Origin: Siphonodentalium dalli
Lineage: Eukaryota > Mollusca > Scaphopoda > Gadilida > Siphonodentaliidae
Length of the DNA: 64,000 bases
Assembly: GCA_032622095.1 (NCBI GenBank)
Contig: CP136069.1
Span: forward strand, 128,073,123 to 128,137,122
Direction of reading: 5' to 3'
Part shown: in pieces, positions 3,319 through 58,500 of the stretch
Layout of the letters: each line of letters begins with the position of its first letter
Position numbering within the stretch: the first letter of the stretch is position 1
The notes under the pieces: generated by a model
Databases searched by the model: none
What the model was told of the DNA's origin: nothing
The model's input: the letters and a program-made list of their open reading frames with translations, nothing else
Position numbers and translations under genes: made by a program

Positions 3319-3520
3319 ATAATGCACCCAGGGCCGATAAGGTTCGGGGTGATTTATGTGGTTCTTTGATCCTGTCATCCGGCAGACATTCCGGATTTTC
3401 GGTACTATCCGTTCCGTATCGGCCGAACTTAAAAGTCCGCATTTTACATCCGCCCGGAATGCTGCCTCCTTCCGGTAACTGAAAAAAGCAATTCACTCTT
3501 GAATTATATGCATCGCGCTC
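3319..3520 (+). repeat. Ngaro split direct repeat A1
   Basis: A 202-bp left end repeat that reappears without visible differences at 18797-18998. It starts ATAATGCACCCAGGGCC, and its first five bases are shared with the right end of B1 and B2. Confidence 0.93.
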
Positions 3521-3559
3521 GGTTGTGTCGTCAATTCCTATCTGTTTCCATCCGTCACC

Positions 3560-4078
3560 GTGTTTCTTCACCAGCCTTCAATTATTCGTCTATCATCTTG
3601 TTCCTTGTGCGCTCTGTCTGCGTCCTGTTCCGTCGGCGTTACCTATTTTCGTGGGTCGTGCACGTGTTTTCCCTGTTTGTGTTTGTCGTTCGGTGGCATT
3701 CCCGTATTTCTCCTATGGTTCGTACAGGATCTCGCGGTCGGGCCCGCGACCGTTCGTCTCGTAGCAGTCGCAAGGTTGCGTCTGCCAGCTCGTCTCGTGC
3801 TGGTCCTGCTTCCAGTGGCCGTGTTAGGCCTTCTTCTCGGGTTTTCGGCCAGTGTGTCATCTGTGGCTGATTCACGGGTGCGCGGCCGTGGTCAGCATTC
3901 GCGTGGCAGGCCTGCTCGTGGCTCTGGACGGGGATGCCACGCCTCTCGTGGCCGGATTTCCCATTCTCGTGGCCGCGATCCTGTTCGTCAGCCTCGTTGT
4001 CAGCCCAGTCGTCAGTCTCGTCGCCAGGCTAGTCGCCGACAGGACGTTTTCTGCGCTATGAATCCAGGTCACCACTAG
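3560..4078 (+). pseudogene. Gag-position basic Arg/Ser/Gly-rich region of the Ngaro element
   Basis: The stretch upstream of the reverse transcriptase is GC-rich and open in more than one frame. One frame (172 codons) ends in a strongly basic segment with repeated RG and SRG dipeptides and many Gln and Arg residues, as expected of a nucleic-acid-binding gag-like product. No retroviral zinc knuckle is visible. Position and composition are the only support. An overlapping frame has a similar bias, so which frame was coding is uncertain. Confidence 0.4.
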
Positions 4079-4365
4079 CGTCTCCTTTGTCGTCCTGTCC
4101 CCGCCGCAGTTCTGATGACAGCTCCACTTCTCTCCGCCGCCGCGTGTGGCTTCAGTGATACACCGACCGAACGCTCCGGCAAGAGACAGAACTGATCCGG
4201 GTAATGCCTTATTTAGCTTTCCATCCTCGCTGGTCTCCCCTTGGGACGCCCCCCTTGCCGATTCCTACGGCGGCAGATGGCCTTGGCTCTCACGTTTCCC
4301 GATCTTCGCGACAAAATGTTCTGGGGGCGTCGTGCTTCCGGGCGAATCCGTGTTGCGCCCAAGGC

Positions 4366-4847
4366 TTAAAATAAGTGGTCTGATATGGCCAATTGTCAGA
4401 CACCAAATTCAAATTTTTATAGGTTGTCAGGCTCTGCTTTGAAACTGTCTGACATAATGTCTGGTTGAGAAATTGATGTATTTTTATGAAAATATCACTG
4501 GTAATGTGATATTTTGCAAAAATTTATAGAGCATGCTGTTAAATGAAATTGGATTGCATAATTTATGGATCCAGTAACACCACTGGGATCAGAGCAATTG
4601 AAGACTTCTATAACCTTAGAATTGAAATCGGCAAGTATGTTTAATGTTGTCGAGGTGGGGCAGATTTGCATTTTAAAAAAAGTGATAATTGAGAAGAGGA
4701 ACATCATTGGGGGATTATACATCATTATTAGTTTAAATTGGTATTATGGGTGATAAAATAGACATGTCAGGCCTCATTTCTAAATGTCAGACCATGTCTG
4801 TTTGGTGCCTGACAAAATGTCAGATAGTCAAATAAAAATTATTTTAA
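4366..4847. mobile_element. TTAA-flanked non-autonomous DNA element inside the Ngaro element
   Basis: An AT-rich, 474-bp insertion in GC-rich host DNA, flanked by TTAA at 4366-4369 and 4844-4847. Both flanks are rich in TCTGACA / TGTCAGGCACCAAA motifs in inverted orientation, for example near 4396 and on the other strand near 4800-4825. Removing the insert and one TTAA leaves continuous GC-rich sequence. TTAA targets are known for piggyBac and Kolobok elements. The ends start AATAA and do not settle which superfamily this is. It has no coding capacity. Confidence 0.75.
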
Positions 4848-4850
4848 GGT

Positions 4851-6347
4851 TTGGTTGCGCCAGGCGGGCATGCTGCTCCAATAACGTCTGTTGACTCGTG
4901 GACCGATGCTTTTCTCACTTTCGTTTCGGTATACCTCGACGTTCACCCTGAATCGTCGGCCCAGCCCCTTTTGCGTTACCTGCGCACCATTCGTTGGGCG
5001 GCGGCTAAATGTGGGGGATCTGTCTGGCGGGTGTACGATCCCCAATTTCGGTTGAAGTGGGATGAAAATACAGCTACTCCTTGGGAGACCATCGACCCTA
5101 ACATTTGGCTGCTGGTCATGACGCCCCAGGTTCGGCAACCTCCGCAGCCGACTCCGCCCCCGGTTCGTGCCTCCGGGCGTGTAGATTTTTTTCCCACGCG
5201 TCCGGGCCATCCCAGTCCCGTCTGTTTTGAACTCAACGCCGGCCTCTGCTCCTGGCCAAACTGTCGTTTCGACACATCTGCAACATCTGCTCAGAGCCTC
5301 ATGCCGCAACCGCTGCCCATGGACAAGACTTTCGTCGCTCAGCCCGCGACGGTCGCCAGCCACGTCTACCAGCTCACCCCTTCCGCCATTAATCTTGTCT
5401 ATTTGTGTTGGTGGCTTAGGAAGTACCCTCACCACCAAGCCGCGCGGGAACTCCGGTTCGGTTTTACTCGTGGTTTTTCCGCTCCATTATACTGGCCCGC
5501 GTATGCAACTGACGCTCCGAACCTCAAGTCTGCTCGTGACCGTCCCGAGGTCGTCCGGGAAAAGATCCTTAAGGAAGGTCGCATTGCTGGTCCTTTCTGC
5601 GCTCGTCCAATTCCATCGCTCCGCGTGTCGCCGCTTGGACTGGTGCCTAAACATGAACCCGACTCATTCCGTCGCATCCATCACCTCTCCTATCCGGCAG
5701 GCCAGTCGCTCAATGATCATATTCCGCGCGAATTCACTGTCACATATACCAGTTTTGACGCTGCTGTTGCCACCATCCGGTCCCTTGGGACCGGGACATT
5801 GCTCGCGCGCAGGGATTTAGAGGCTGCATATCGTAATCTTCGCATCTACCCGGGCGATTTCGATCAACTTGGTTTTAAACTGGACGACATGTTTTATTTC
5901 GACAACTGCTTACCTTTCGGCTGCAGCGTGTCGTGCGCAACTTTTGAAAAATTCTCAACATTTTTGGAATGGGTTGTTAAGCAGCGGTCCGGCAACCCAC
6001 ACATCTTGTACTACTGCGATGACTTCCTGTTCTGTGGTCCGCCAGCCACGTCCCAGGCCTCGGACAGTCTTGACATGTTTCATCGCGTTTGCTCTGGTCT
6101 TGGCGTACCTATTGCTCATGATAAAACGGTCTCGCCCACCTCGAAGCTCTGCTACCTTGGTCTCGCACTCGATACGTTGGCTAACGCGGTGCGTCTCCCT
6201 GCTGAGAAGCTCACAGCTATTCAGTCCACAATCTCTCTGGCTTTGCGCTGCCGTAAAATCTCGGTCGTGAACTACAGTCGCTCATTGGCTCATTACCATT
6301 TGCGTGCAAGGCGGTTCGTCCGGGCCGCCCAATTTGTCGTCGCCTGA
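4851..6347 (+). CDS. Reverse transcriptase region of the Ngaro element (fossil)
   Basis: An open frame of 498 codons. It opens at a TTG directly beside the TTAA insertion, so its real start is not visible. The RT palm is clear: RRDLEAAY with Asp about residue 322 (motif A), LPFGCSVSCATFEKF (motif B), YCDD at residues 388-391 (motif C) and CYLGLALDT after it. Spacing and motifs match DIRS/Ngaro polymerases rather than Gypsy or LINE ones. In the family this enzyme copies the element RNA into DNA before tyrosine-recombinase integration. RNase H follows downstream. Confidence 0.88.
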   Translation: MVAPGGHAAPITSVDSWTDAFLTFVSVYLDVHPESSAQPLLRYLRTIRWAAAKCGGSVWRVYDPQFRLKWDENTATPWETIDPNIWLLVMTPQVRQPPQPTPPPVRASGRVDFFPTRPGHPSPVCFELNAGLCSWPNCRFDTSATSAQSLMPQPLPMDKTFVAQPATVASHVYQLTPSAINLVYLCWWLRKYPHHQAARELRFGFTRGFSAPLYWPAYATDAPNLKSARDRPEVVREKILKEGRIAGPFCARPIPSLRVSPLGLVPKHEPDSFRRIHHLSYPAGQSLNDHIPREFTVTYTSFDAAVATIRSLGTGTLLARRDLEAAYRNLRIYPGDFDQLGFKLDDMFYFDNCLPFGCSVSCATFEKFSTFLEWVVKQRSGNPHILYYCDDFLFCGPPATSQASDSLDMFHRVCSGLGVPIAHDKTVSPTSKLCYLGLALDTLANAVRLPAEKLTAIQSTISLALRCRKISVVNYSRSLAHYHLRARRFVRAAQFVVA

Positions 6348-6399
6348 TTGATGCCCTGCAGGGATTTTCTAAGCCGAATCACAAAATCCGAATTACTTC

Positions 6400-6955
6400 T
6401 GGCATGTGCCGATCTGGCCACGTGGTTACAGTTCTTCACGTCATTCAATGGGATCTACCTTTTCCCTTCTGCGACCTGGCTCCATGATACCGACATCAAT
6501 TTCCACATGGACGCTTGTGGTCAGTCCGGCGGCTTTGGCGCTTATTTCAACAGCCTTTGGGCTTTTGGCACGTGGCCCCTTCCTTGGCATGCTTTGGGCC
6601 TGACCCGCAATATGGGTGTTCTCGAGATGTTCCCCGTCTTAGTGGCATCGGCGTCTGGGGGCGTCGCCTCCGAAATCACCGCCTCCATTTACACTGTGAT
6701 AACATTACCGTGGTCCGCGCCATCAACTACCAAACTTCCAAATGCAAGCCGCTCATGGCCCTGTTGCGCCAGCTGGTCCTGCTGCTCCTGTCTCACAACA
6801 TCTCCTTGCGTGCTTCATGTATCGCGTCTCGTGATAATGCTCTCGCTGACAGCCTCTCTCGTTTCCAGATGAAACGTTTCCGTCAACTGGCGCTGTCCGC
6901 CGCCCGAACGCCAACACCATTTCCCAGATGCCTGTGGACCTGCGTCGACATGTAA
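6400..6955 (+). pseudogene. RNase H region of the Ngaro element
   Basis: Recognisable RNase H pieces follow the polymerase. An HMDACGQSGGFGAYF segment (the D-A-S/C strand) lies near 6508-6555. A CDN segment and a later NALADSLSR segment lie between about 6690 and 6870. They are not all in one frame, so the domain is broken. In the family it degrades the RNA strand during cDNA synthesis. Confidence 0.75.
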
Positions 6956-7262
6956 CGCTGCTTTTGACGTCCTCCCGGGCGCCATATACTCACCGCACGT
7001 ATCGCACCGCCACACAGGCTTATCTCGTTTTCGCACACCGGCATCGCTTGGCCGTTTCCTGGCCGCTCCCGGAACACGCTATCGTCGGGTTTATCGCGGG
7101 GCTTCATCGCTCCCGGCATTCTGCTTCAACCTTTTCCACCATTTCGTTCGGGTAGTGCTACCTATCTGGCGGATCTGGGCACCCCTTACCATGCCTTCCT
7201 CCACCGGGGTCGTTGGCGGTCTGATGTTTGTCGTCGATTCATCCACTCAACATCTGCTTAGT
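6928..7262 (+). pseudogene. Tyrosine recombinase remnant of the Ngaro element
   Basis: An N-terminal core-binding-like helical segment is open at 6928-7155, with PYTHRTYRTATQAYLVFA and HAIVGFIAGL as landmarks. A GRWRSD segment typical of the C-terminal end of DIRS-group recombinases follows near 7206. The catalytic domain is only partly recognisable, so I call this broken. The family enzyme would join a circular cDNA to target DNA without a conventional target duplication, which agrees with the shared ATAAT at the element junctions. Confidence 0.65.
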
Positions 7263-7306
7263 CTCGTTTCAGTAGCCAGTATCTGGGTCTTGGGTTCGTC
7301 CCACGT

Positions 7307-7703
7307 CTACTGGGCTCACCAGCGTGCTGTGCGGCGTCCTGTTGGCCAACATCTCCAGCTGTCCAGCCACGGCGCTTCTGTTCGATGGATCTGCACTCGT
7401 GGGATGCTGTGGGGCGATTTCCACGCCCGTTCGCCCGGGAGCTCGCCGCTTGTCCGCAGTCTCGGCATCCTACCCACATCATCCAGCTTGGCTCGAACGA
7501 CCTCACAGCCGGTGGGTACCGTGAATTACATGCCAATGTTAAGCGGGAACTTTCATAGGTGCATGAATCGTTGCCTGACTGCTCCCTTATTTGGTCACAA
7601 GTATTCCCGCGCCGCTATTGGCACAACGCCCATCGCCCGAGTATTGGTGCTCGCCAGCGCCGGGACTTTATCCAACGCATGTTGGGCTTTGTCTTACATC
7701 ACG
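7307..7703 (+). repeat. 397-bp direct duplication, left copy
   Basis: Matches 17615-18011 at a constant offset of 10,308 bp. Only one difference was seen (T near 7582, A near 17890). The two copies exactly bound the satellite block, like an exceptionally long target duplication. Confidence 0.95.
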
Positions 7704-7706
7704 TAA
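7307..7706 (+). pseudogene. SGNH-hydrolase-like region of the Ngaro element, first copy, split by the satellite block
   Basis: Carries an IIQLGSNDL segment resembling the Gly-x-Asn-Asp block of SGNH/GDSL esterases, near 7480-7505. The sequence is cut at 7703 by the satellite block. The same DNA restarts at 17615 and runs through to the rest of the domain. SGNH-like ORFs are known in some Ngaro elements; their role is unclear. Confidence 0.6.
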
Positions 7707-8340
7707 TATCTAAGTATGCCTGAGTATGCAACTGTTTTCAAATAGGAAACGTGTATAAATACTTACTCACATTCTAACTGAATATGTACTACTTAACTAG
7801 ATAATCATGTTTTCTACACAAGGACATCCCTGAACTAGGATGCCTGTCTACATATTATGTGCATACTATATAGGTATGCAACTGTTTTCCTACATGATAC
7901 GTGTGTATATATACTTACTCTCATTCAAACAGAATGTGTACTACTTAACTATTTAATCGTGCTCTATACACGATATTACACCATGGCATCAATTAACGTG
8001 GATGCCTGCCTATATGCATAGTATATGTATACTATCTAAGTATGCAAGTGTTTCCAATAGGAAACGTGTATATATACTGACTTACATTCCAACCGAATGT
8101 GTTCTACTCTACTATTTAATCATGCTTTCTACACGGTGTGACACCATGACTTCCCTTAATTTGGATGCTTGCCTACATATTAGATGTATAATATCTAAGT
8201 ATGCAACTGTTTTCCAATAGGAAACGTGTATATATACTGATTCTCATTCAAACTGAATGTGTACCACTTAACTACTTAATCATGCTTTCTACACGATAGG
8301 ACACAATGACATCCCGGAATATGGATGCCTGCCTACATTT
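7704..8340 (+). repeat. Alpha units of the satellite block, first run
   Basis: Four tandem units starting near 7704, 7870, 8030 and 8190. Each has a CTAAGTATGCAA-like start, a GTGTATATATACT segment, a CTTAACTA-TTAATCATGCT segment and a GATGCCTGCCTACAT end. Further alpha units occur singly between the larger modules and as a run at 12766-13240. Confidence 0.85.
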
Positions 8341-9420
8341 CGAACTAGCAAGAAGTGTGCATTGTATATACACAAAAGATAAACTAAATGAATAAATTCA
8401 TAGCAATTAGAAGATTGGAATCTTCCTATGATTACACACGATAAATAGTGTTAAAACCAATTGTACATGTTAATGTACTGAGACATTATTGTCTCGAAGT
8501 ATAAACTCTTCATCCACAAACCTGAAAAATCACAAACTCAATTGACCTGCTAAAATTGGTCTACTCTAGCTATCAAAATGGCAAACATATCCAACTAGCA
8601 ATGCGTGTGCTTTGTATTTAAATCGGGCCCACTGATATTCAAATTGAATTCATCCATTTATTTGGGAAATTCATTGGGTAACACGCTCAACTTATCTGTA
8701 AGACACATATAGAGCCCACTAATATTATTTGATATTATGCTCTGTCTTGCTTGATTATTATATACACATGCGAGCCAACTGGAATGCACCATTATCTCAA
8801 ACCATATATCCATGGAGAGCGGTGTGTTCTATGCTCTTACACGCTATTTTGGAACTAACATATACATGTAATACCAGATGCCATCAAATATGGCGTACTA
8901 TACACAAATTTATCTGGAAATGTATATGATTGGTGTGTCAAAACATCGACACGTCATTAATCACCAACTCCAATAGAGTAGGGATATCAATTTCCCATCA
9001 TTAAAGTTACACAGGGCACAATGTCCACCACATGCGGATTCTATCATGGAACAGTTTGAACAAGACTAAACCAATTCCTTCCAGACCACATGTGTTCTGG
9101 GTATATAGCATATAGGAAAACTTATATACTTCACACTCAACGTGTCGCCTAGTAAGCGCTGTTGTAAAGACAGGTCAAGCCATTCTAGGTTGCATATAAT
9201 ATGCAAATACAGAAGAAATCTGCATCTAAAATGCATCAAATAGGCATAAACTATGCTGGTTTAAACTATGACTGTCACATTACTAACTCATCTGACTCAA
9301 AGTGCAAAACTTGGGCGTGACACGACCGACTGCTCTAATAATATAAGCAGCACGATGGAATTTATAAATTCCGGGCTCAGAATACTCATTAAAGTGGTAT
9401 TCATCCAATTTTATATAAAA
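8341..9420 (+). repeat. Beta module, copy 1
   Basis: Starts CGAACTAGCAAGAAGTG and ends CATCCAATTTTATATAAAAA. Nearly identical to 9681-10760 (offset 1,340 bp) and somewhat more diverged from 13241-14321. It contains an ATTTATAAATTCC palindrome near 9360. The short frames repeated in each copy have no recognisable domain. Confidence 0.9.
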
Positions 9421-9680
9421 ATCTCATTCTTACCTAATGTGAACCACTTAACTATTTAAACATGCTTTCTACACGGTATGACACCATGACATCCCTGAAC
9501 ATGGATGCCTGTCTACATATTAGATGTATAATATCTAAGTATGCAACTGTTTTCCAATAGGAAACGTGTATATATACTGATTCTCATTCAAACTGAATGT
9601 GTACCACTTAACTACTTAATCATGCTTTCTACACGATAGGACACAATGACATCCCGGAATATGGATGCCTGCCTACATTT

Positions 9681-10760
9681 CGAACTAGCAAGAAGTGTGC
9701 ATTGTATATACACAAAAGATAAACTAAATGAATAAATTCATAGCAATTAGAAGATTGGAATCTTCCTATGATTACACACGATAAATAGTGTTAAAACCAA
9801 TTGTACATGTTAATGTACTGAGACATTATTGTCTCGAAGTATAAACTCTTCATCCACAAACCTGAAAAATCACAAACTCAATTGACCTGCTAAAATTGGT
9901 CTACTCTAGCTATCAAAATGGCAAACATATCCAACTAGCAATGCGTGTGCTTTGTATTTAAATCGGGCCCACTGATATTCAAATTGAATTCATCCATTTA
10001 TTTGGGAAATTCATTGGGTAACACGCTCAACTTATCTGTAAGACACATATAGAGCCCACTAATATTATTTGATATTATGCTCTGTCTTGCTTGATTATTA
10101 TATACACATGCGAGCCAACTGGAATGCACCATTATCTCAAACCATATATCCATGGAGAGCGGTGTGTTCTATGCTCTTACACGCTATTTTGGAACTAACA
10201 TATACATGTAATACCAGATGCCATCAAATATGGCGTACTATACACAAATTTATCTGGAAATGTATATGATTGGTGTGTCAAAACATCGACACGTCATTAA
10301 TCACCAACTCCAATAGAGTAGGGATATCAATTTCCCATCATTAAAGTTACACAGGGCACAATGTCCACCACATGCGGATTCTATCATGGAACAGTTTGAA
10401 CAAGACTAAACCAATTCCTTCCAGACCACATGTGTTCTGGGTATATAGCATATAGGAAAACTTACATACTTCACACTCAACGTGTCGCCTAGTAAGCGCT
10501 GTTGTAAAGACAGGTCAAGCCATTCTAGGTTGCATATAATATGCAAATACAGAAGAAATCTGCATCTAAAATGCATCAAATAGGCATAAACTATGCTGGT
10601 TTAAACTATGACTGTCACATTACTTACTCATCTGACTCAAAGTGCAAAACTTGGGCGTGACACGACCGACTGCTCTAATAATATAAGCAGCACGATGGAA
10701 TTTATAAATTCCGGGCTCAGAATACTCATTAAAGTGGTATTCATCCAATTTTATATAAAA
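9681..10760 (+). repeat. Beta module, copy 2
   Basis: Second copy of the module at 8341-9420, with very few differences, which marks a recent local duplication of alpha plus beta. Confidence 0.9.
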
Positions 10761-10948
10761 ATCTCATTCTTACCTAATGTGAACCACTTAACTATTTAAA
10801 CATGCTTTCTACACGGTATGACACCATGACATCCCTGAACATGGATGCCTGTCTACATATTAGATGTATGATATCTAAGTATGCAACTCTTTTCCAATAG
10901 GAAACGTGTATATATACTGACTCTCATTCTTACCGAATGTGTACTAGT

Positions 10949-11988
10949 TAAGTATTGAATCACTCGATACCCACGTAACTCATTTACTGAAACGGAATTT
11001 ATGAACCGTTGTTCCGGGTTTCAACAAAAGCTTAAAAAACAGGCTATAACCCGAAAGAATTATCGGCGGCCCTGCAGACATTGACACTCAATGACCGACG
11101 TGCTAATTTAACCAAGAAGCACCTGCTCAATGCCAATGATAAATCATATAATTTTGCACACAATACCATAATGGTGCATCATAATATAAGACGTGTTACA
11201 AAACAACTCGAACATTGTTTTAAACAAAATCACTCATGTGTGATACGAACAATGTCCTAACAATATGCACAAACGGGCAGTGAATAATTTACTCATTGAA
11301 AATGTAAACACATGGACAGTCTCGTTCAAAGATAGGACGTGATGTTCGTAGTTATCCATCCTTACATTAAAAACTCCCCTACATGGGAACCACTTAACTA
11401 TTTAATCATGCTTTCTACACGGTATGACACCATGACATCCCTGAATTCGGATGCCTGCCTACATATTAGATGTATAATATCTAAGTACGCAACTCTTTTC
11501 CAATAGGAAACGTGTATATATACTGACTCTCATTCTGACCGAATGTGTACTACGTAAGTATTTAATCACTCGATACCCACGTAACTCATTTACTGACACG
11601 GAATTTATGAACCGTTGTTCCGTGTTTCAACAAAAGTTAAAAACACCAGGCTATAACCCGAAAGAATTATCGGCAGCCCTGCATACATTGACACTCAATG
11701 ACCGACGTGCTAATTTAACCAAGAAGCACCACTGATAAATGATATAATTTTGCACACAATACCATACTGGTGCATCATTATATAAGACATGAAAACAACT
11801 CGAACATTGTTTTAAAAAAATTCACTCATGTGAGATACGAATAATGTCCTTACTATATTCACACACGCGCAGTGAATAATTTACTCATTGAAAATGGAAA
11901 CACATGGACAGTCTCGTTCAAAGATCGGACGTGATGTTCGTAGTTATCCATCCTTACATTAAAAACTCCCCTACATGGGAATCAAACA
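10949..11988 (+). repeat. Gamma and gamma' modules with an alpha unit between, copy 1
   Basis: Two related modules of about 440 bp separated by one alpha unit (about 11389-11545). Both share TGAACCGTTGTTCCG, ATTATCGGC and GACCGACGTGCTAATTTAACC, and end in CCATCCTTACATTAAAAACTC, which resembles the terminal motif of beta and delta. Related copies lie at about 14510-15555, and gamma' alone again at about 16400-16842. Confidence 0.85.
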
Positions 11989-12763
11989 CCCGCTAAGGGA
12001 CTAACTATTTAATTCCTGTACTTTATGATATGTGACTGCCAGAACCCTTGAAATATTGGCTTTTAACGACACACAGCCTGTTGAAACGCAGATTACTCAA
12101 TACAGATATCTTTACAACACTTGCAAGAGATTACAACAATCTGGTCTAATTGATCAAAAGGAAAGTGCGAACTGCCTTGATCTGATACTTGACAGGACTA
12201 ATCTTACGCACATGTGAACGGAATGCTACCACGCTATTACACATTGGCTATGTCAATCACACTTAACGAACCAATGAAATTACGTGTTTGCTATACTGCC
12301 GTATTACACACAGAACGGTGGGCCGACCAGAGCACGTGTTATATTGACCAGCGATATTTCTAGTAAGTGCAGACCACACAACTTCGGGTCTGTGATAACT
12401 TGCACATAATGTTGCTTCCGACTTATTGCTATTTCACTACGAATGACACAATAACTCACGCCTATTATAATAGGCATGTTACTATGAACAACATGCGAAG
12501 CCTTGAAGGCCATCGCTCAATTCAGCTGTCTTGAGACAGTCTGTATCTACCATGCACACATACCTATATGTGTTGATCCCTCAGTTACTTTGAGGAATCT
12601 TAATTCCGCTCTCTCCTGATGAGACCTTGCGGGTTCACCAATTTCTAAATTGGTTGACAAAATAGGTCGAAACACTAAAAGGCAGTGTAGAGTGCTACAT
12701 AGAATGTCCCGTCCATAGATCGGATGGGATGTTGGTATTTATCCAATTTTATATAAAAACATA
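11989..12763 (+). repeat. Delta module, copy 1 (hammerhead-bearing)
   Basis: About 775 bp, repeated at about 15555-16328 and 16844-17614. It is rich in small hairpins, including GCCTATTATAATAGGC near 12458 and CTCAGTTACTTTGAG near 12580, then the hammerhead-like fold. It ends in TATTTATCCAATTTTATA. Two short frames recur in the copies, but neither shows a domain. Confidence 0.88.
12606..12700 (+). ncRNA. Type I hammerhead ribozyme candidate, copy 1
   Basis: The conserved core CTGATGA is at 12616-12622. Stem II pairs GACCT (12623-12627) with AGGTC (12664-12668). Inside it a second helix pairs ACCAATTT with AAATTGGT. GAAA follows at 12669-12672. Stem III pairs ACACT (12672-12676) with AGTGT (12684-12688) around a 7-base loop. 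The expected cleavage site is after GTA at 12689. Stem I closes with CTC (12613-12615) and GAG (12690-12692), with weaker pairing beyond. Order and spacing fit a type I hammerhead, a self-cleaving RNA known from animal satellites, retrozymes and Penelope-like elements. The weak part is stem I. Activity and transcription are inferred. Confidence 0.78.
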
Positions 12764-13240
12764 CTATATAGGTATGCAACTGTTTTCCTACATGCTACGT
12801 GTATATGTACTTACTCTCATTCAAACAGAATGTGTACTACTTAACTATTTAATCGTGCTCTATACACGATATTACACCATGACATCAATGAACGTGGATG
12901 CCTGCCTATATACATAGTATATGCATGTATACTATCTAAGTATGCAAGTGTTTCCAATAGCAAACGTGTATATATACTGACTTACATTCCAACCGAATGT
13001 GTTCTACTCTACTATGTAATCATGCTTTCTACACGGTGTGACACCATGACATCCCTTAATTTGGATGCTTGCCTACATATTAGATGTATAATATCTAAGT
13101 ATGCAACTGTTTTCCAATAGGAAACGTGTATATATACTGATTCTCATTCAAACTGAATGTGTACCACTTAACTACTTAATTATGCTTTCTACACGATAGG
13201 ACACAATGACATCCCGTAATATGGATGCCTGTCTACATTT
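12764..13240 (+). repeat. Alpha units of the satellite block, second run
   Basis: Three tandem alpha units, starting directly after the first delta module and leading into beta copy 3. They match 7870-8340 unit for unit, which shows that the higher-order period includes this run. Confidence 0.85.
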
Positions 13241-14321
13241 CGAACTAGCAAGAAGTGTGCATTATATATACACAAAAGATAAACTAAATGAATAAATTCA
13301 TAGCAATTAGAAGATTGAAATCTTCCCATGATGTCACACGATAAATAGTGTTAAAACCAATTGTACATGTTAATGTACTGAGACATTAGTGTCTCGAAGT
13401 ATAAACTCTTCATCCACAAACGTGAAAAATCACAAACTCAAGTGACCTGCTAAAATTGGTCTACTCTAGCTATCAAAATGGCAAACATATCCAACTAGCA
13501 ATGCGTGTGCTTTGTATTTAAACGAGGGCCCACTGATATTCAATTGAATTCATCCATTTATTTGGGAAATTCATTGGGTAACACGCTCAACTTATCTGGA
13601 AGACACATATAGAGCCCACTAATATTATTTGATATTATGCTCTGTCTTGCTTGATTATTATATACACATGCGAGCCAACTGGAATGCACCATTATCTCAA
13701 ACCATATATCCATGGAGAGCGGTGTGTTCTATGCTCTTACACGCTATTTTGGAATTAACATATACATGTAATACCAAATGCCATCAAATATGGCGTACTA
13801 TACACAAATTTATCTGGAAATGTATATGATTGGTGTGTCAAAACATCGACACGTCATTAATCGCCAACTCCTATAGAGTAGGGATATCAATTTCCTATCA
13901 TTAAAGTTACACAGGGCACAATGTCCACCACATGTTGATTCTGTCATGGAACAGTTTGAACTAGACTAAACCAATTCCTTCCAGACCACATGTGTTCTGG
14001 GTATATAGCATATAGGAAAACTTATATACTTCACACTCAACGTGTCTGCCCTAGTAAGCGCTGTTGTAAAGACAGGTCAAGCCATTCTAGGTTGCATATA
14101 ATATGCAAATACAGAAGAAATCTGCATCTAAAATGCAACAAATAGGCATAAACTATGCTGGTTTAAATTATGACTGTCACATTACTAACTCATTTGACTC
14201 AAAGTGCAAAACTTGGGCGTGACACGACCGACTGCTCTAATAATATAAGCAGCACGATGGAATCTATAAATTCCGGGCTCAGAATACTCATTAAAGTGGT
14301 ATTCATCCAATTTTATATAAA
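13241..14321 (+). repeat. Beta module, copy 3
   Basis: Same module as 8341-9420, with more scattered substitutions and small indels than separate the first two copies. It is therefore an older duplicate. Confidence 0.9.
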
Positions 14322-14509
14322 AATCTCATTCTTACCTAATGTGAACCACTTAAATATTAAACATGCTTTCTACACGGTATGACACCATGACATCCCTGAA
14401 CATGGATGCCTGTCTACATATTAGATGTATGATATCTAAGTATACAACTCTTTTCCAATAGGAAACGTGTATATATACCGACTCTCATTCTTACCGAATG
14501 TGTACTAGT

Positions 14510-15555
14510 TAAGTATTTAATCACTCGATACCCACGTAATTCATTTACTGAAACGGAATTTATGAACCGTTGTTCCGGGTTTCAACAAAAGCTTAAAAAA
14601 CAGGCTATTACCCGAAATAATTATCGGCGGCCCTGCAGACATTGACACTCAATGACCGACGTGCTAATTTAACCAAGAAGCACCTGCTCAATGCCACTGA
14701 TAAATCATATAAATTTGCACACAATACCATACTGGTGCATCATAATATAAGACGGTTTACAAAACAACTCGAACATTGTTTTAAACAAAATCACTCATGT
14801 GTGATACGAACAATGTCCTAACAATATGCACAAACGCGCAATGAATAATTTACTCATTGAAAATGGAAACACATGGAAAGTCTCGTTCAAAGATAGGACG
14901 TGATGTTCGTAGTTATCCATCCTTACATTAAAAACTCCCCTACATGGGAACCACTTAACTATTTAATCATGCTTTCTACACGGTATGACACCATGACATC
15001 CCTGAATTCGGATACCTGCCTACATATTAGATGTATAATATCTAAGTATGCAACTCTTTTCCAATAGGAAACGTGTATATATACTGACTCTCATTCTTAC
15101 CGAATGTGTACTACTTAAGTATTTAATCACTCGATACCCACGTAACTCATTTACTGACACGGAATTTATGAACCGTTGTTCCGTGTTTCAACAAAAGCTA
15201 AAAAACAGGCTATAACCCGAAAGAATTATCGGCAGCCCTGCATACATTGACACTCAATGACCGACGTGCTAATTTAACCAAGAAGCACCTGCTCAATGCC
15301 ACTGATAAATGATATAATTTTGCACACAATACCATACTGGTGCATCATTATATAAGACATGAAAACAACTCGAACATTGTTTTTAAAAATTCACTCATGT
15401 GAGATACGAATAATGTCTTACTATATGCACACACGCGCAGTGAATAATTTACTCATTGAAAATGGAAACACATGGACAGTCTCGTTCAAAGATCGGACGT
15501 GATGTTCGTAGTTATCCATCCTTACATTAAAAACTCCCCTACATGGGAATCAAAC
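14510..15555 (+). repeat. Gamma and gamma' modules, copy 2
   Basis: Same order as 10949-11988. The gamma' here differs from the one near 11545 at several sites (for example AAAGCTAAAAAACAGG against AAAGTTAAAAACACCAGG). The gamma' at 16400 matches the one near 11545. Confidence 0.85.
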
Positions 15556-16328
15556 ACCCGCTAAGGGACTAACTATTTAATTCTTGTACTTTACGATATG
15601 TGACTGCCAGAATCCTTGAAATATTGGCTTTTAACGACACACAGCCTGTTGAAACGTAGATTACTCAATACAGATATATCTTACAACACTTGCAAGAGAT
15701 TACAACAATCTGGTCTAATTGATCAAAAGGAAAGTGAGAACTGCCTTGATCCGATACTTGACAGGACTAATCTGGCACACATGTGAACCGAATGCTACCA
15801 CGCTATTACACAGTGGCCATGTCAATCACACTTAACGAACCAATGAAATTACGTGTTTGCTATACTGCCGTATTACACACAGAACGGTGGGCCGACCAGA
15901 GCACGTGTTATATTGACCAGCGATATTTCTAGTAAGTGCAGACCACACAACTTCGGGTCTGTGATAACTTGCACATAATGTTGCTTCCGACTTATTGCTA
16001 TTTCACTACGAATGACACAATAACTCACGCCTATTATAATAGGCATGTTACTATGAACAACATGCGAAGCCTTGAAGGCCATCGCTCAATTCAGCTGTCT
16101 TGAGACAGTCTGTATCTACCATGCACACATACCTATATGTGTTGATCCCTCAGTTACTTTGAGGAATCTTAATTCCGCTCTCTCCTGATGAGACCTTGCG
16201 GGTTCACCAATTTCTAAATTGGTTGACAAAATAGGTCGAAACACTAAAAGGCAGTGTAGAGTGCTACATAGAATGTTCCGTCCATAGATCGGATGGGATG
16301 TTGGTATTTATCCAATTTTATATAAAAT
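15555..16328 (+). repeat. Delta module, copy 2
   Basis: Matches copy 1 at an offset of about 3,569 bp, with a few substitutions in its first third. It contains the second hammerhead candidate. Confidence 0.88.
16175..16269 (+). ncRNA. Type I hammerhead ribozyme candidate, copy 2
   Basis: Core CTGATGA at 16185-16191, with the same GACCT/AGGTC stem II, GAAA and ACACT/AGTGT stem III as copy 1. No change was seen within the fold, although the surrounding module carries several. Confidence 0.78.
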
Positions 16329-17614
16329 ATAATATCTAAGTACGCAACTCTTTTCCAATAGGAAACGTGTATATATACTGACTCTCATTCTGACCGAATG
16401 TGTACTACGTAAGTATTTAATCACTCGATACCCACGTAACTCATTTACTGACACGGAATTTATGAACCGTTGTTCCGTGTTTCAACAAAAGTTAAAAACA
16501 CCAGGCTATAACCCGAAAGAATTATCGGCAGCCCTGCATACATTGACACTCAATGACCGACGTGCTAATTTAACCAAGAAGCACCACTGATAAATGATAT
16601 AATTTTGCACACAATACCATACTGGTGCATCATTATATAAGACATGAAAACAACTCGAACATTGTTTTTAAAAAATTCACTCATGTAAGATACGAATAAT
16701 GTCCTTACTATATTCACACACGCGCAGTGAATAATTTACTCATTGAAAATGGAAACACATGGACAGTCTCGTTCAAAGATCGGACGTGATGTTCGTAGTT
16801 ATCCATCCTTACATTAAAAACTCCCCTACATGGGAATCAAACACCCGCTAAGGGACTAACTATTTAATTCCTGTACTTTATGATATGTGACTGCCAGAAC
16901 CCTTGAAATATTGGCTTTTAACGACACACAGCCTGTTGAAACGCAGATTACTCAATACAGATATCTTTACAACACTTGCAAGAGATTACAACAATCTGGT
17001 CTAATTGATCAAAAGGAAAGTGCGAACTGCCTTGATCTGATACTTGACAGGACTAATCTTACGCACATGTGAACGGAATGCTACCACGCTATTACACATT
17101 GGCTATGTCAATCACACTTAACGAACCAATGAAATTACGTGTTTGCTATACTGCCGTATTACACACAGAACGGTGGGCCGACCAGAGCACGTGTTATATT
17201 GACCAGCGATATTTCTAGTAAGTGCAGACCACACAACTTCGGGTCTGTGATAACTTGCACATAATGTTGCTTCCGACTTATTGCTATTTCACTACGAATG
17301 ACACAATAACTCACGCCTATTATAATAGGCATGTTACTATGAACAACATGCGAAGCCTTGAAGGCCATCGCTCAATTCAGCTGTCTTGAGACAGTCTGTA
17401 TCTACCATGCACACATACCTATATGTGTTGATCCCTCAGTTACTTTGAGGAATCTTAATTCCGCTCTCTCCTGATGAGACCTTGCGGGTTCACCAATTTC
17501 TAAATTGGTTGACAAAATAGGTCGAAACACTAAAAGGCAGTGTAGAGTGCTACATAGAATGTCCCGTCCATAGATCGGATGGGATGTTGGTATTTATCCA
17601 ATTTTATATAAAAA
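16328..17614 (+). repeat. Partial higher-order unit: gamma' plus delta copy 3
   Basis: Matches 11473-12759 at a constant offset of 4,855 bp and appears almost identical to it. It is less like its immediate neighbour at 15040-16328. The join at 16327/16328 falls on the TATAATATCTAAG module border. Confidence 0.88.
17461..17555 (+). ncRNA. Type I hammerhead ribozyme candidate, copy 3
   Basis: Core CTGATGA at 17471-17477, with all three stems as in copy 1. In a transcript through the array, the three predicted cleavage sites would lie 3,569 and 1,286 nt apart. Confidence 0.78.
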
Positions 17615-18011
17615 CTACTGGGCTCACCAGCGTGCTGTGCGGCGTCCTGTTGGCCAACATCTCCAGCTGTCCAGCCACGGCGCTTCTGTTCGATGGATCT
17701 GCACTCGTGGGATGCTGTGGGGCGATTTCCACGCCCGTTCGCCCGGGAGCTCGCCGCTTGTCCGCAGTCTCGGCATCCTACCCACATCATCCAGCTTGGC
17801 TCGAACGACCTCACAGCCGGTGGGTACCGTGAATTACATGCCAATGTTAAGCGGGAACTTTCATAGGTGCATGAATCGTTGCCTGACTGCACCCTTATTT
17901 GGTCACAAGTATTCCCGCGCCGCTATTGGCACAACGCCCATCGCCCGAGTATTGGTGCTCGCCAGCGCCGGGACTTTATCCAACGCATGTTGGGCTTTGT
18001 CTTACATCACG
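17615..18011 (+). repeat. 397-bp direct duplication, right copy
   Basis: Second copy of 7307-7703. To its right the retroelement continues without further interruption. Confidence 0.95.
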
Positions 18012-18161
18012 GGGGTCGTGGCATCAAGCACCCAGCCATTTGCGCTTCGTTCCGATGGGATCCATCTCTCCCCCGTCGGCAACAATATCTATCTGAATAG
18101 TCTCCGGGGCGCCCTGGAGACCTTCCTGGCATCTGACACTATGGTTTTCCCGGTGGTTTAA
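17615..18161 (+). pseudogene. SGNH-hydrolase-like region of the Ngaro element, continuation
   Basis: Contains the same LGSND-like block as the first copy and, further on, a DGIHLSPVGNNIYL segment (18055-18100). That segment matches the Asp-x-x-His catalytic block at the end of SGNH esterases. The two blocks are not in one uninterrupted frame, so the region is broken. It lies in the usual position for this accessory ORF, just upstream of the B1 repeat. Confidence 0.65.
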
Positions 18162-18395
18162 CTGTTTCATTGCTGTAATTGGGCATGGAGCTCCTGGTTT
18201 GGGGAAGTGCTGCGCACTCTATGGCGGTCCTGCAGATGGTGGTAGTGGTAGTGTCGCCATAGCGTTATAACCTGTCTGGTAACTTTGATGGGTGGCTTAT
18301 CAATAGTAGCTTAATATGTTTATGACTGCGCAGTCATCTTATGCTTATTCGAGAGTGCTCTCGAACTGTAGCCTGAGTGTAATATTCCAGGCCGT

Positions 18396-18801
18396 TGCTT
18401 AGCCATAGGGAGTTGGGCTGTCCAGTGGTCTCTACTGCCATTCCTGCGTCGCACTCGTTGGGCTTCTCCCTGTTGGCCGTGTGTGCTTATTGCTTAGGGC
18501 GCCTCATAGCAATTCTTGGGCGCCGGCTCCGAATCGTACCTTAGCTCGTCGGGCCATGCTCATGCCTGCGCTGTACAGCAGTATTTCTTCAGCGTTCTCT
18601 GCTTCGGCTTCTCGTCAGAGCGAAGGCTCTGCTTAATTGGCTTTTCCATGCGTATGGGCTATCTGCAGGACAAGCTTATAATGTTGCATTAAAGCTGAGA
18701 TCATACCCCACTCATGTGTTGTCGTTTAAATATTCCGTGCAGTAGTGGCAGGGCTGTCACTGGTGGGGGTAGTGTCTCTTGGATCTGAGTGATCACATAA
18801 T
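18396..18801 (+). repeat. Ngaro split direct repeat B1
   Basis: A 406-bp repeat beginning TGCTTAGCCATAGGGAG and ending GATCACATAAT. It is repeated at 19228-19633 with no difference seen, and it abuts A2 with ATAAT shared. Confidence 0.93.
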
Positions 18802-18998
18802 GCACCCAGGGCCGATAAGGTTCGGGGTGATTTATGTGGTTCTTTGATCCTGTCATCCGGCAGACATTCCGGATTTTCGGTACTATCCGTTCCGTATCGG
18901 CCGAACTTAAAAGTCCGCATTTTACATCCGCCCGGAATGCTGCCTCCTTCCGGTAACTGAAAAAAGCAATTCACTCTTGAATTATATGCATCGCGCTC
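18797..18998 (+). repeat. Ngaro split direct repeat A2
   Basis: Second copy of A1, joined directly to B1. This A2-after-B1 arrangement separates Ngaro elements from LTR elements. About 230 bp of unique sequence (18999-19227) lies between A2 and B2. Confidence 0.93.
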
Positions 18999-19227
18999 CC
19001 TCCCTCCCCCCCTTGGAGCTCCATGCCCCGCTTTGTTCGGCGTCCCGAGTGGCACGCCATATTCATTGTTCTGTGATGCCTGTTTTGTTTTGGGCCTAGG
19101 GCCCTGTGTGTTTGCATCTCGTTGCTGCTGTTTGTTTTCCCTTTCAGGTGCTGTGTCATCAGTGCCATTGATCCAGCCTTGGTGCGTCCTGCAGGGGTAA
19201 CTTTGGTGTTACCTGCCCATACCACGG

Positions 19228-19633
19228 TGCTTAGCCATAGGGAGTTGGGCTGTCCAGTGGTCTCTACTGCCATTCCTGCGTCGCACTCGTTGGGCTTCTC
19301 CCTGTTGGCCGTGTGTGCTTATTGCTTAGGGCGCCTCATAGCAATTCTTGGGCGCCGGCTCCGAATCGTACCTTAGCTCGTCGGGCCATGCTCATGCCTG
19401 CGCTGTACAGCAGTATTTCTTCAGCGTTCTCTGCTTCGGCTTCTCGTCAGAGCGAAGGCTCTGCTTAATTGGCTTTTCCATGCGTATGGGCTATCTGCAG
19501 GACAAGCTTATAATGTTGCATTAAAGCTGAGATCATACCCCACTCATGTGTTGTCGTTTAAATATTCCGTGCAGTAGTGGCAGGGCTGTCACTGGTGGGG
19601 GTAGTGTCTCTTGGATCTGAGTGATCACATAAT
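19228..19633 (+). repeat. Ngaro split direct repeat B2, right end of element
   Basis: Second copy of B1. It ends GATCACATAAT and is followed by genomic ACTGCC. With the left flank CAGGTG, the inferred empty site is CAGGTG-ATAAT-ACTGCC. Confidence 0.93.
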
Positions 19634-35879: not shown

Positions 35880-37625
35880 AAGCTCTGGATAAACAATACA
35901 TATCGCATCTGCAGCAGTCTACTTCATTGTGAATTAAGTCACTCTGGGTTAGTTGACTACATGCATGCACACACAACACAGCCGAGGGTTATTGTAATTT
36001 AATGAAAATGTCACACCGAGGTACGCCATCTTGATTGCTTTCAAAAAATAGTGCAACTTACCTGTTGGTAATTACTCATACGAATGAAGAGCGTTTAACT
36101 GATACGAAATTACTACACGAATGAACTGAGTCTTGATATTTATATTTCACATCTTTCTTAAATGTTCCAACACATACAGACATAGACATAGTGTTATACA
36201 GTCTTATCTGTACACACGCTACGACACCATTAAAGGTGAACAATACACTCACGATGTGACAACATATACAGACATAGGCATACACGAGGTAAGGGACGTT
36301 ATGTAATATTGGTGTGTGAATATTAAAGGAGCACAATGCGCTCTAAAGGGACACACGGCACTCATTATGAATGAATGTTAAAGAAACACAATACACACGC
36401 AGTGGGTGAAAGTTAAAAAGACGCAGAACAATATTTAAACTTAAAATTTTAGGGCTCTTAATGTACCATTTATGTATCGTTTCTCGCTCTACAATCTCCC
36501 ATCCCCACTTATAGATATATAACGAAGACGAGAATAACATGTTGATGTTTTCATGTTTAAGCTCAGGTATGACTCAAATTGTATCAATGGTACATATATG
36601 TGCATCTTATCACGTGGCGATCAAAATGTGATGTTTACACACTTAAGCTCTGAATAAACTATACATATCGCATCTGAATGAATTTCTGGAATGTAGGTTA
36701 GCCATGCGTTCACAGACACTGGAATACAATAGTCACTGTCTATATAGAAGTATGACCTTGTACGTAAATAATAAAGCGCGTTATCGAGTCTATTCATTCT
36801 CAATAATAGATGGTCATTTAGTCAAAACAGTATGGTGTCATTTATCCCCCACATATTGGAGCCACACATTACTTGATGTTCACTTATACAGTTGTATGTC
36901 AATTATCAGTGGAGTGTCAGTGTACTTCATTGTGAATTAAATCACTCTGGGTTATTTGACTATAAACTATAAACCTGTTACACCACAGCTGAGGGTTATT
37001 GTAATTTAATGAAAATGTCACACCGAGGTACGCCATCTTGATTGCTTTCAAAAATAGTGCAACTTACCTGTTGGTAATTACTCATACGAATGAAGAGCGT
37101 TTAACTGATACGAAATTACTACACGAATAAACTGAGTCTTGACATTTATATTTCACATCTTTCTTAAATGTTCCAACACATACAGACATAGACATAGTGT
37201 TATACAGTCTTATATGTACACACGCTACGACACCATTAAAGGTGGGCGTTACACTCACGATGTGACAACATATACAGACATAGGCATAGTGTTATACAGT
37301 CTTCTATGTACCAACGCTATGACATAATTAAAGGGGGATAATGCACGCACGGTTTGGAATGTTAAAGTGACACGAGGTAAGGGACGTTAGGTAATATTGG
37401 TGTGTGAATATTAAAGGAGCACAATGCGCTCTAAAGGGACACAAGACACTCATTATGAATGAATGTTAACAATACACACGCAGTGGGTGAAAGTTAAAAA
37501 GACACAGAACAATATTTAAACTTCAAATTTTAGGGCTCTTAGTGTACCATTTATGTATCGTTTCTCGCTCTACAATCCCCCTCCCCACTTATAGATATAT
37601 AACGAAGACGAGAATAACATGTTGA
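35880..37625 (-). repeat. Two related spacer units in the left arm
   Basis: 36546-37625 and 35880-36545 are diverged copies. Both run, on the minus strand, from CATCAACATGTTATTCTCGTC through a 91-bp repeat block, a GGTGTGACATTTTCATTAAA segment and down to CTTAAGTGTGTAAACATCAC. One follows the gene and the other precedes the gene fragment, so gene plus spacer was once duplicated in tandem. Mirrored at about 39366-41205. Confidence 0.75.
37170..37335. repeat. 91-bp repeat block, one of three per arm
   Basis: Two tandem units with ACAGACATAGGCATAGTGTT, ATACAGTCTT and ACGCTATGACACCATTAAAG. Sister blocks lie at about 34820-34985 and 36160-36290, with mirrors near 39655, 40750 and 42215. Confidence 0.85.
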
Positions 37626-37641
37626 TGAAGTTTATTGAAAT

Positions 37642-38277
37642 TTAATCATTGTCAGAAGCTTCGACCGTTAGATTTATTTCTAGGAGTTTCTTAAATTTTC
37701 TCATCGCTTCATCCGCAGCCCATTCATTATTATATCCGTGTTTGGTCAGTTTGACCATTTTCTTCATGATAGCGTTATGTATGCGGGATGTTTTCAATCG
37801 ATGCTGGTATTCTATCAATCGTCTGTAACTTTTGAGAAAGAGAGAAAACTCTGTGTCGACGCGTTCTAGCTGAGCTTTTCCCTCAGCCTCTTCTCCCGAC
37901 ACGCCCTCTTCTTCCATCAGTTGATCAAACTTATCAGACAATGCTTTCACATCATCGATGACGCGTTTCATCATACTTTTGAATGTGTCCATCTCATTGA
38001 CGCATCGCGCAGCTTTCTTACGGCCGAATACCGATCTACTACCGGCGACAGTATCATCCTCTGAATCCGAAGAGGACGAAGCGGTTCTAGATTCTGATGA
38101 AGGTGAACGGGGAATGATATCAGATTCGGACGAATCTAGAACCGTTTCTCGGTCATCTGTATCTTTCCCGAAAAAATCTCCATTCGTTCCTGACATAATT
38201 TCGTGTTTAATCTGTTTATGTCTTTGTAGATTGTAGTTCGTCGATAAAATATTTCCGCATAAATGGCACCCAGGCAT
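37642..38277 (-). CDS. C2H2 finger / acidic linker / helical-domain protein, left-arm copy
   Basis: An intact frame of 211 codons from an ATG 220 bp from the palindrome centre. A C2H2 finger opens it: Cys4, Cys7, His20, His25 (C-x2-C-x12-H-x4-H). Residues about 30-75 are acidic and Ser-rich with SSSSDSEDD. From about 88 to the end the protein looks helical and charged, with MMKRVIDDVKALSDKFDQL, EEAEGKAQLE, YRRLIEYQHRLKT and KLTKHGYNNEWAADEAMRKF, and it ends SDND. No transposase or nuclease motif is visible. I do not recognise it. From memory, the finger-plus-helical layout resembles uncharacterised proteins repeated in other invertebrate genomes, possibly carried by mobile elements. AATAAA on the gene strand overlaps the stop codon (37639). 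Confidence 0.7.
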   Translation of the reverse strand: MPGCHLCGNILSTNYNLQRHKQIKHEIMSGTNGDFFGKDTDDRETVLDSSESDIIPRSPSSESRTASSSSDSEDDTVAGSRSVFGRKKAARCVNEMDTFKSMMKRVIDDVKALSDKFDQLMEEEGVSGEEAEGKAQLERVDTEFSLFLKSYRRLIEYQHRLKTSRIHNAIMKKMVKLTKHGYNNEWAADEAMRKFKKLLEINLTVEASDND

Positions 38278-38380
38278 TATCGCGAATTATTGGAATAACG
38301 ATCACTCTTATATTAACGAAAAGATCGAAAAAGTTCTGTTAAAAAAAATGGCGCGCGCGCGGCCCCTTCCCCTTTTTTGG

Positions 38381-38612
38381 AAAAAAATGTACGCATGATA
38401 ACATTATATTCATACATGCTAACGATGACGTTAAGGTCGTTTTGGTGTTCTCCACTCTTGCTCCTGTGCTCAGTTGCTCATTTGCTCTTTGTCCCACTCC
38501 CCCACTTGATCATTTGCTCTTTTTTCTTGCTCATTTACTCTTTTCTCCTCTCCTCGAATGCACTTCTCCTTTTGATACGTACGATCCCCCATACAAAAAA
38601 AATCCGAACCAA
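38381..38612. other. Central spacer of the palindrome
   Basis: 232 bp of single-copy DNA between the arms. It includes several TTGCTCATTTGCTC-like motifs resembling the outer TGAGCAAA runs. GC-rich (GC)n tracts sit just inside each arm (about 38351-38363 and 38629-38643). The two gene copies diverge from here, so this is the natural place for a shared promoter, but I see no defined promoter motif. Confidence 0.7.
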
Positions 38613-38715
38613 AAAAGGGGAAGGGGCCGCGCGCGCGCGCGCCAGTTTTTTTAACAGAACTTTTTCGATCTTTTCGTTAATATAAGAGTGATCGTTATTC
38701 CAATAATTCGCGATA

Positions 38716-39351
38716 ATGCCTGGGTGCCATTTATGCGGAAATATTTTATCGACGAACTACAATCTACAAAGACATAAACAGATTAAACACGGAATTATGT
38801 CAGGAACGAATGGAGATTTTTTCGGGAAAGATACAGATGACCGAGAAACGGTTCTAGATTCGTCCGAATCTGATATCATTCCCCGTTCACCTTCATCAGA
38901 ATCTAGAACCGCTTCGTCCTCTTCAGATTCATAGGATGATACTGTCGCCGGTAGTAGATCGGTATTCGGCCGTAAGAAAGCTGCGCGATGCGTCAATGAG
39001 ATGGACACATTCAAAAGTATGATGAAACGCGTCATCGATGATGTGAAAGCATTGTCTGATAAGTTTGATCAACTGATGGAAGAAGAGGGCGTGTCGAGAG
39101 AAGAGGCTGAGGGAAAAGCTCAGCTAGAACACGTCGACACAGAGTTTTCTCTCTTTCTCAAAAGTTACAGACGATTGATAGAATACCAGCATCGATTGAA
39201 AACATCCCGCATACATAACGCTATCATGAAGAAAATGGTCAAACTGACCAAACACGGATATAATAATGAATGGGCTGCGGATGAAGCGATGAGAAAATTC
39301 AAGAAACTCCTAGAAATAAATCTAACGGTCGAAGCTTCTGACAATGATTAA
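38716..39351 (+). pseudogene. C2H2 finger / helical-domain protein, right-arm copy
   Basis: Mirror copy of 37642-38277, with the same length, start and end. The finger and the helical region are both preserved with only a few substitutions, but the frame is interrupted once, so I call it broken. Preservation of the left copy beside a nearly intact right copy suggests the gene was functional until recently. Confidence 0.75.
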
Positions 39352-44699: not shown

Positions 44700-45260
44700 T
44701 TACACAGTTGTGTCATCAGCAAAAGATAAACGTGATAGAGCAGTAGATTTGTGCATATCAGTAACATGAACTAAGAAAAGAATCGACCCAGAAACATATC
44801 CCTGAGGGACTCCACATGTAATTGGGAGTTTGGAAGAAACCATATCTTCCAAATCAACACATTGAGATCTATTGGTCAAATAATTTCTAAACCACTCATT
44901 GGCTTTGCCTCTTACTCCATAGGATTCAAGTTTACTCAGCATAATTTCATGATTTATTGTGTCAAAGGCTTTAGAAAAATAAATAAATGCAGTTAGAGTA
45001 CAATCTGTGTTCTTCTTATCATTATTCAAACCCACATCATAGAGTAGCTTTAAAATTGAATGAATTGTTGAGTGATCTTTTCTAACTCCATACTGATCAT
45101 GATAGAGAATGTCACGTTTGTTTAAAAAATCAACTAATCTGTGACACACAATTCTTTCTAAAATTTTAGAAAAAATGGGAAGAAGACTGATTGGGCGATA
45201 GTTTCCCGTTATCTTTGATTCACCTGATTTAAAGAGAGGGATAACCCTTGCTATCTTCAT
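44700..45260 (-). pseudogene. LINE reverse transcriptase, fingers and palm
   Basis: A 186-codon frame. ARVIPLFKSGESKITGNYRPISLLP opens the fingers; FIYFSKAFDTINHEIML carries the motif A Asp; CGVPQGYVSGSILFLVHVTDM is motif B with the usual SVLGP changed to YVSGS; FADDTTV is motif C. The Tyr-for-Ser change and the interrupted downstream frame indicate a decayed copy. Confidence 0.88.
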
Positions 45261-58182: not shown

Positions 58183-58500
58183 TTGGCATATTAGTGGGCA
58201 GGGAGATCTGTTTGCATATTGATTCAAGATAATTAATATTCATCTCACTGTCCAATGAGGATGCATAATTCCCGGACGAGGACGCGATGTGACTATCTGT
58301 TGTAACGTTTTGTTGGCATATTATTGGGCAGTGAGATTTGTTTGCATATTGATTCAAGATAATTAATATCCATCTCACTGTCCAATGAGGATGCATAATT
58401 TCCGGACATAGTAATAGCGTGAGACTCCTTTGACCGGGAATAAGAAAGAGTTTCTTTCCATCTGCCGAACGCCGAGGACGAGATGTGACTGTATGTTGTA
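58183..58500. repeat. Two 130-bp tandem units plus a partial third
   Basis: TTGGCATATTAGTGGGCAG ... ATGCATAATTCCCGGAC repeats at a 130-bp spacing. GAGGACG-GATGTGACT recurs once more near 58472. A 146-codon minus-strand frame spans the units; I take it as a by-product. The same structure is present in copy 2 near 62382. Confidence 0.85.

Follow-up and report, generated by a model that had tools for sequence, protein, structure and literature searches.

Which role does a hammerhead ribozyme play in a tandem array of a molluscan genome, and does its RNA cut itself in the animal? Hammerheads are conserved in Penelope-like elements (PLEs), and in an excerpt of PMC7761336 their activity in vivo and their role are called a mystery. 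The array considered here lies on the plus strand of the window, i.e. the whole stretch of 64,000 nucleotides from Siphonodentalium dalli that was analysed. A preliminary description, made from the letters of the window, had interpreted it as a higher-order satellite with a hammerhead in one of its modules. We have followed up this description in the window and in the genome to which the window belongs (2.23 Gb, nine contigs).

A type I hammerhead in three copies

The hammerhead occupies positions 12606..12700 of the plus strand and is found again at 16175..16269 and 17461..17555, with cleavage predicted after 12689, 16258 and 17544, respectively. All pieces named in the preliminary description are present, pair with each other and stand in the type I order. 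In the first copy, these are the CTGATGA core (12616-12622), stem II (12623-12627/12664-12668), the GAA core (12669-12671), stem III (12672-12676/12684-12688), the H17 residue, which is an A (12689), and stem I, formed by CTC (12613-12615) and GAG (12690-12692). The CTGATGA core at 12616 is repeated exactly at 16185 and 17471, and the spacings of 3,569 and 1,286 nt between the predicted cleavage sites were calculated correctly. The extension of stem II had to be redrawn: it does not consist of a 9 x 9 internal loop and a helix of 8 bp but of a 5 x 5 internal loop, 3 bp, a 1 x 1 mismatch and 7 bp closed by a 4-nt loop.

A strict descriptor requiring at least 5 bp in stems II and III and at least 3 bp in stem I detected three sites in the window, one in each repeat copy, and had no match in any of 150 dinucleotide shuffles; with a loose descriptor, three sites were obtained summed over all 150 shuffles. 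The covariance check that had been proposed spoke against the hammerhead: in the window, none of the Rfam families scored at gathering level. The best value for RF00008 was 15 bits (E 1.9) versus the 48.5 bits needed, with an alignment interrupted by the hairpin inserted in loop 2. Likewise, no hammerhead-like match was among those listed at E <= 5 for a full-length unit from another locus (L034, see below). The minimum free energy fold varies with the ends chosen: for 12600-12712 it lacks the hammerhead and has an energy that is ordinary for the composition (z -0.81), while for 12594-12712 it contains stems II and III and a CTC/GAG stem I at -28.6 kcal/mol. Enforcing the full set of hammerhead pairs on the latter segment gives -25.1 kcal/mol. 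Stem I can be formed with 3 bp and possible outer pairs, and the core bases are retained in the 40 full-length genomic copies scored, which are the best matches by construction. Decayed hammerheads exist as well, for instance with GGTTGAAA in L060 and with CTGACGA in L064. The core, the stems and their order support the assignment of the site, with its predicted self-cleavage, to the type I hammerheads.

The array consists of truncated copies of a dispersed element

Three units follow each other head-to-tail on the plus strand at 7704..12760, 12761..16327 and 16328..17614. All of them are truncated at the 5' end; they share the end of the tail (12760, 16327 and 17614), and all three starts fall on one and the same phase of a 160-bp repeat. 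These 160-bp repeats, termed alpha, begin the first unit (7724..8338) and recur at 12761-13238 and as single copies between modules. They are followed by the beta module (8341..9426, again at about 9681-10766 and at 13239-14328) and the gamma module (10960..11384, again at about 11560-11984 and at 14521-14953, 15120-15552 and 16415-16839), the edges of both having been set by eye. The delta module contains the hammerhead and the tail (11985..12760, again at about 15553-16327 and 16840-17614). Beta has the final 27 bp of the delta tail in common with delta, and gamma carries a relic of the C-terminus of a Penelope-like reverse transcriptase (RT) as well as a tail homologous to delta. Sequence similarity connects both gamma and delta with the 3' portion of a Penelope-like element. 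The predicted 3' cleavage product would comprise 70 nt from the bond to the 3' end of the element (12690..12759), a segment that also occurs as a separate insert elsewhere in the genome.

The three delta copies are identical over the 95 bp of the hammerhead. The identity extends over 458 bp (12250-12707, 15819-16276 and 17105-17562), and 38 of the 41 differing alignment columns of delta lie before 12250; gene conversion or constraint could explain this block. Compared with shuffled sequences, the RNA of the array folds with a mean z of -1.3 on the plus strand and -0.9 on the minus strand (n = 132 each), the controls being at about -0.2 (n = 110 each). This surplus is present on both strands and was therefore left out of the evidence.

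The unit is not confined to the array. A 131-bp query resulted in 374 first-look candidates, of which 40 were scored. At least 40 full-length matches, all of them 100% identical, are located on contigs C1-C5, and exact pattern matches place further copies on C6-C9. Two partial matches among those listed both start at 12690. An exact scan of the viral_contigs set gave no match. The full unit is about 4.47 kb long, i.e. 4,468 bp in L034, with match spacings of 4,456, 4,468 and 4,473 elsewhere, and has no open reading frame (ORF) of more than 118 aa. In the fetched loci, copies with a single 3' end are embedded in differing flanks and their 5' ends are scattered. Six exact joins from unit position 4468 to position 1 were found in L031, L034, L039, L044 and L047. 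Two joins between units contain a piece of the 3' end, 72 bp in L031 and 70 bp in L048, which starts two bases before the predicted bond or at it. Moreover, L032, L037 and L043 carry at their 5' ends inverted copies of the 3' tail of 29-31 bp, all of which end at unit position 4438-4439. In 14 of the 20 large loci, the best four BLAST matches per locus contained no target-site duplication touching both ends, a listing in which short duplications may be missed.

Retrotransposition with 5' truncation and template jumps is established for non-LTR elements and PLEs, and we infer that the copies of the unit display this pattern. The array is made up of three copies of a non-coding retroelement that is dispersed in the genome; the copies are arranged head-to-tail and lack their 5' parts. 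The tandem modules of the preliminary description stand, but what they form is, to judge from the one 3' end, the scattered 5' ends and the exact head-to-tail joins, a dispersed retroelement rather than a higher-order satellite.

Insertions starting at the predicted cleavage bond

The cleavage bond had been named ahead of any genome data. For the breakpoint test, all exact copies of a 28-mer with a non-native base before the bond were collected from the whole genome. The 28-mer across the bond is present with the native A at 181 places, at least one of which (L066) is a break that happens to follow an A. At 12 places, which were read in 328-base pieces, a base other than A precedes 12690. All 12 are breakpoints located exactly at 12689|12690, and none is a substitution. 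They correspond to about 10 independent breaks because L053 and L055 share their flanks, as do L056 and L059. The DNA on the 5' side of the breaks is unrelated in L056/L059 and L062, an inverted piece of the unit in L051, and the tail of another unit plus a few extra bases in L052, L053/L055, L054, L057, L058, L060 and L061. Furthermore, L066 is a solo piece in unrelated DNA that starts at the bond after a chance A, and the piece in L031 starts at the bond after a chance TA. In L060 (131-269), two 70-bp pieces, the second of which has diverged, stand in series behind a decayed hammerhead, both of them starting at the bond.

The same test was applied to three control positions. Before 12689, the only place was L066, leaving no unambiguous break; before 12691, there were three places, one break and two substitutions; before 12700, the one place was a break. 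The Poisson probability of at least 10 breaks is 1e-7 for an expectation of one per position and 1e-3 for an expectation of three. Old copies are missed since only exact 28-mers were counted. The breaks at 12689|12690 suggest that the 70-nt 3' cleavage product served as a template for reverse transcription and that the resulting DNA was inserted. With 181 native places versus 12 others, the breaks form a small minority, and cleavage is therefore not required for the copying of the element.

A probable Penelope-like partner sharing ribozyme and tail

The longest stop-free frame among the 20 large loci lies in L046 (864-2804, 647 aa). Its product has a match to the Pfam family RVT_1 below the cut-off and matched 68 database proteins. 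The best 12 of the 68 are 614-648 aa long, and every one of the nine among these 12 that carry an organism name belongs to a bivalve (Mytilus, Saccostrea, Pinctada and Argopecten). A PDB match to "Tako8", 26 residues in length, was disregarded. Alignment with seven longer proteins (P0179-P0185) gave 28-29% over 93%. All three of those scanned have a GIY-YIG match at the C-terminus, P0184 above the Pfam cut-off and P0179 and P0185 just below it. A search for GIY-YIG-like motifs matched P0181-P0185 and P0188 and missed P0179 and P0180; a further match near the N-terminus of P0162 is probably due to chance. According to the excerpts of PMC11167929, the canonical PLE order is an RT followed by a C-terminal GIY-YIG endonuclease. 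In the 647-aa ORF of L046, no GIY-YIG endonuclease was matched at E <= 10, nor was one seen by eye in the 863 bp upstream. By these sequence comparisons, the L046 copy can be assigned an RT of the PLE type.

The 3' flank of the L046 copy is homologous to positions 3562-4468 of the unit. The ribozyme and the tail are identical at 148 of 154 positions, compared with 292 of 349 positions just upstream (Fisher p 3.5e-5). In addition, both gamma modules of the unit hold relics of residues 527-589 of the L046 RT (tblastn 3e-18). Given the shared ribozyme and tail and the gamma relics, we favour the view that the unit is a non-autonomous element which derives from a PLE lacking an endonuclease and is headed by 160-bp repeats, and we infer that an RT of the L046 type moves it. 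A non-coding hammerhead element is hereby tied to a PLE copy by ribozyme and tail, a relation that had earlier been proposed for animal retrozymes.

Comparison with known hammerhead elements

Published PLE hammerheads are mostly minimal. The hammerhead of the unit differs from most of them by its full stem III. Compared with PLEs such as Penelope and Poseidon, as depicted in PMC11167929 and PMC3846280, the unit agrees in the RT type and in a hammerhead close to the start site of reverse transcription, the bond of the unit lying 70 nt before the 3' end. Its copies, like those of PLEs, can stand in full or partial tandem, be truncated at the 5' end and bear inverted end pieces, and some show no target-site duplication. 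Unlike PLEs, the unit is non-coding (longest ORF 118 aa), possesses 160-bp repeats and has a hairpin added to loop 2, and its likely helper RT from L046 differs from canonical PLEs in having no endonuclease match. For the Anolis element PAc, the excerpts of PMC11167929 describe activity in vitro without a need for cleavage and RNA-seq data in which no ends were seen at the site, whereas insertions of the unit start at the cleavage bond.

Rotifer terminons and endonuclease-less PLEs resemble the unit in that no PLE endonuclease is needed, in the hammerhead near the 3' end, in head-to-tail arrays and in 5' truncation (PMC6431247, in part). However, terminons are portrayed there as giant, coding elements ending in telomere repeats, and no telomere repeat is present in the flanks of the unit that were read. 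The animal non-LTR retrozymes, as far as the excerpts of PMC7229834 and PMC7761336 go, share with the unit the lack of coding capacity, the tandem arrangement, the type I hammerhead, a low GC content and the suggestion of a PLE as mover. Animal retrozymes are repeats of about 170-400 bp that are expressed as circRNA; the unit is about ten times as long and lies outside this size range. For the unit, a PLE copy that shares its ribozyme and tail was found here. Finally, the Sm-alpha and W-elements of Schistosoma are comparable as non-autonomous retroelements or satellites with a type I hammerhead (PMC6155905, in part).

How the unit may move

It appears quite probable from the sequence evidence that the array represents three truncated copies of a non-coding unit whose 3' end stems from an endonuclease-less PLE, that the unit is probably moved by such an RT, and that its hammerhead cuts in vivo. 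The transcripts would fold the hammerhead, and a minority of them would be cut in vivo. Reverse transcription would start at the tail, either of the uncut RNA or of the 70-nt 3' product, and the RT, having arrived at the end of its template, would jump to the tail of another RNA with the addition of a few bases. Such jumps would produce tandem units, 70-bp pieces between units and solo 70-bp insertions. An RT without an endonuclease of its own may use existing breaks, which would fit the 14 loci without adjacent duplications and the inverted tails of 29-31 bp in L032, L037 and L043. Most copies are derived from uncut RNA; cleavage is thus not required, in agreement with the behaviour of PAc in vitro. 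We lean towards the view that Penelope-type elements make use of hammerhead self-cleavage when they move in vivo, a step which may provide RNA ends for copying and jumping by the RT and a 70-nt 3' fragment that could be inserted on its own.

The breaks at 12690 could also be places at which the RT stopped at a folded but uncut ribozyme, the short cDNA then being inserted or extended on another template. RTs are known to stop on structured RNA and the bond adjoins stem I, both of which speak for such stops. These would be expected where the RT meets stem I, that is at or 3' of 12692, or spread over several bases, whereas the breaks fall on a single bond and the neighbouring positions 12689 and 12691 gave no unambiguous break and one break, respectively; we regard this reading as unlikely. 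The tandem units with their type I hammerheads are also reminiscent of animal retrozymes, for which PLEs are the proposed movers (excerpts of PMC7229834 and PMC7761336). Neighbouring hammerheads would then release monomers that are ligated to circles and copied into tandem arrays. A circle alone gives neither solo 70-bp pieces nor 5' truncation towards one 3' end, and a unit of about 4.47 kb contrasts with the roughly 170-400 nt printed for animal retrozymes, which makes this route very unlikely.

A satellite whose ribozyme is a fossil, and which was spread through recombination of DNA or carried, as in oysters, by an element of the Helentron type (HINE), would account for near-identical segments having moved within the array, a feature visible in the window, and 160-bp tandem repeats are reported for the HINE/Pearl elements of bivalves (PMC7492417, in part). 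Yet the one 3' end, the 5' truncation with scattered 5' ends, the different flanks, the PLE relics and the PLE copy that shares its ribozyme and tail with the unit all disfavour this origin, to the point that it is highly improbable.

If the unit indeed moves by way of a PLE-type RT that also copies cut RNA, the insertions starting at the bond are a record, kept in the DNA, of cleaved RNA having been reverse-transcribed. No earlier report of insertions starting at a hammerhead cleavage bond was found among the titles and abstracts that the literature searches listed. The junction count can be applied to any genome with such elements, which makes the open question of hammerhead activity in vivo testable.

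The host element and further features of the window

The whole array is enclosed by a retrotransposon on the plus strand (3319..19633) that we take, from its structure, to be of the Ngaro type. It has split direct repeats (A1 3319-3520, B1 18393-18801, A2 18797-18998 and B2 19225-19633; A1/A2 100% and B1/B2 99.8% identical) and an RT ORF at 4848-6347. An interrupted frame of this element shows SGNH hydrolase-like motifs by eye, with no Pfam match. Relatives of the Ngaro-type RT and of the L046 RT are found in bivalves, in line with a molluscan host, and the former also has reptile, frog and symbiont-bin matches. A direct duplication of 397 bp flanks the array (7307..7703 and 17615..18011, both on the plus strand), the copies being 99.7% identical. 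This duplication, which stands against 14 other loci in which no adjacent duplication was seen, does not follow from the proposed mechanism.

In the remainder of the window, a 48-bp minisatellite of 55 copies extends over 185-2850 and gives rise to stop-free stretches of as many as 757 codons on the minus strand. A large inverted repeat (36162-38380 and 38609-40822, 97% identical) contains an ORF of 214 aa at 37642 for which no relatives were found. Pieces of a non-LTR retrotransposon with RT- and endonuclease-like ORFs are located on the minus strand at 44700-46617, and a direct repeat of 3 kb (56800-59796 and 60999-64000) is 99.7% identical. Outside the window, a tandem repeat beside the element in L034 (7565-9806) has kept its frames open and encodes the repeated peptide SSINVLYRAQMRF.
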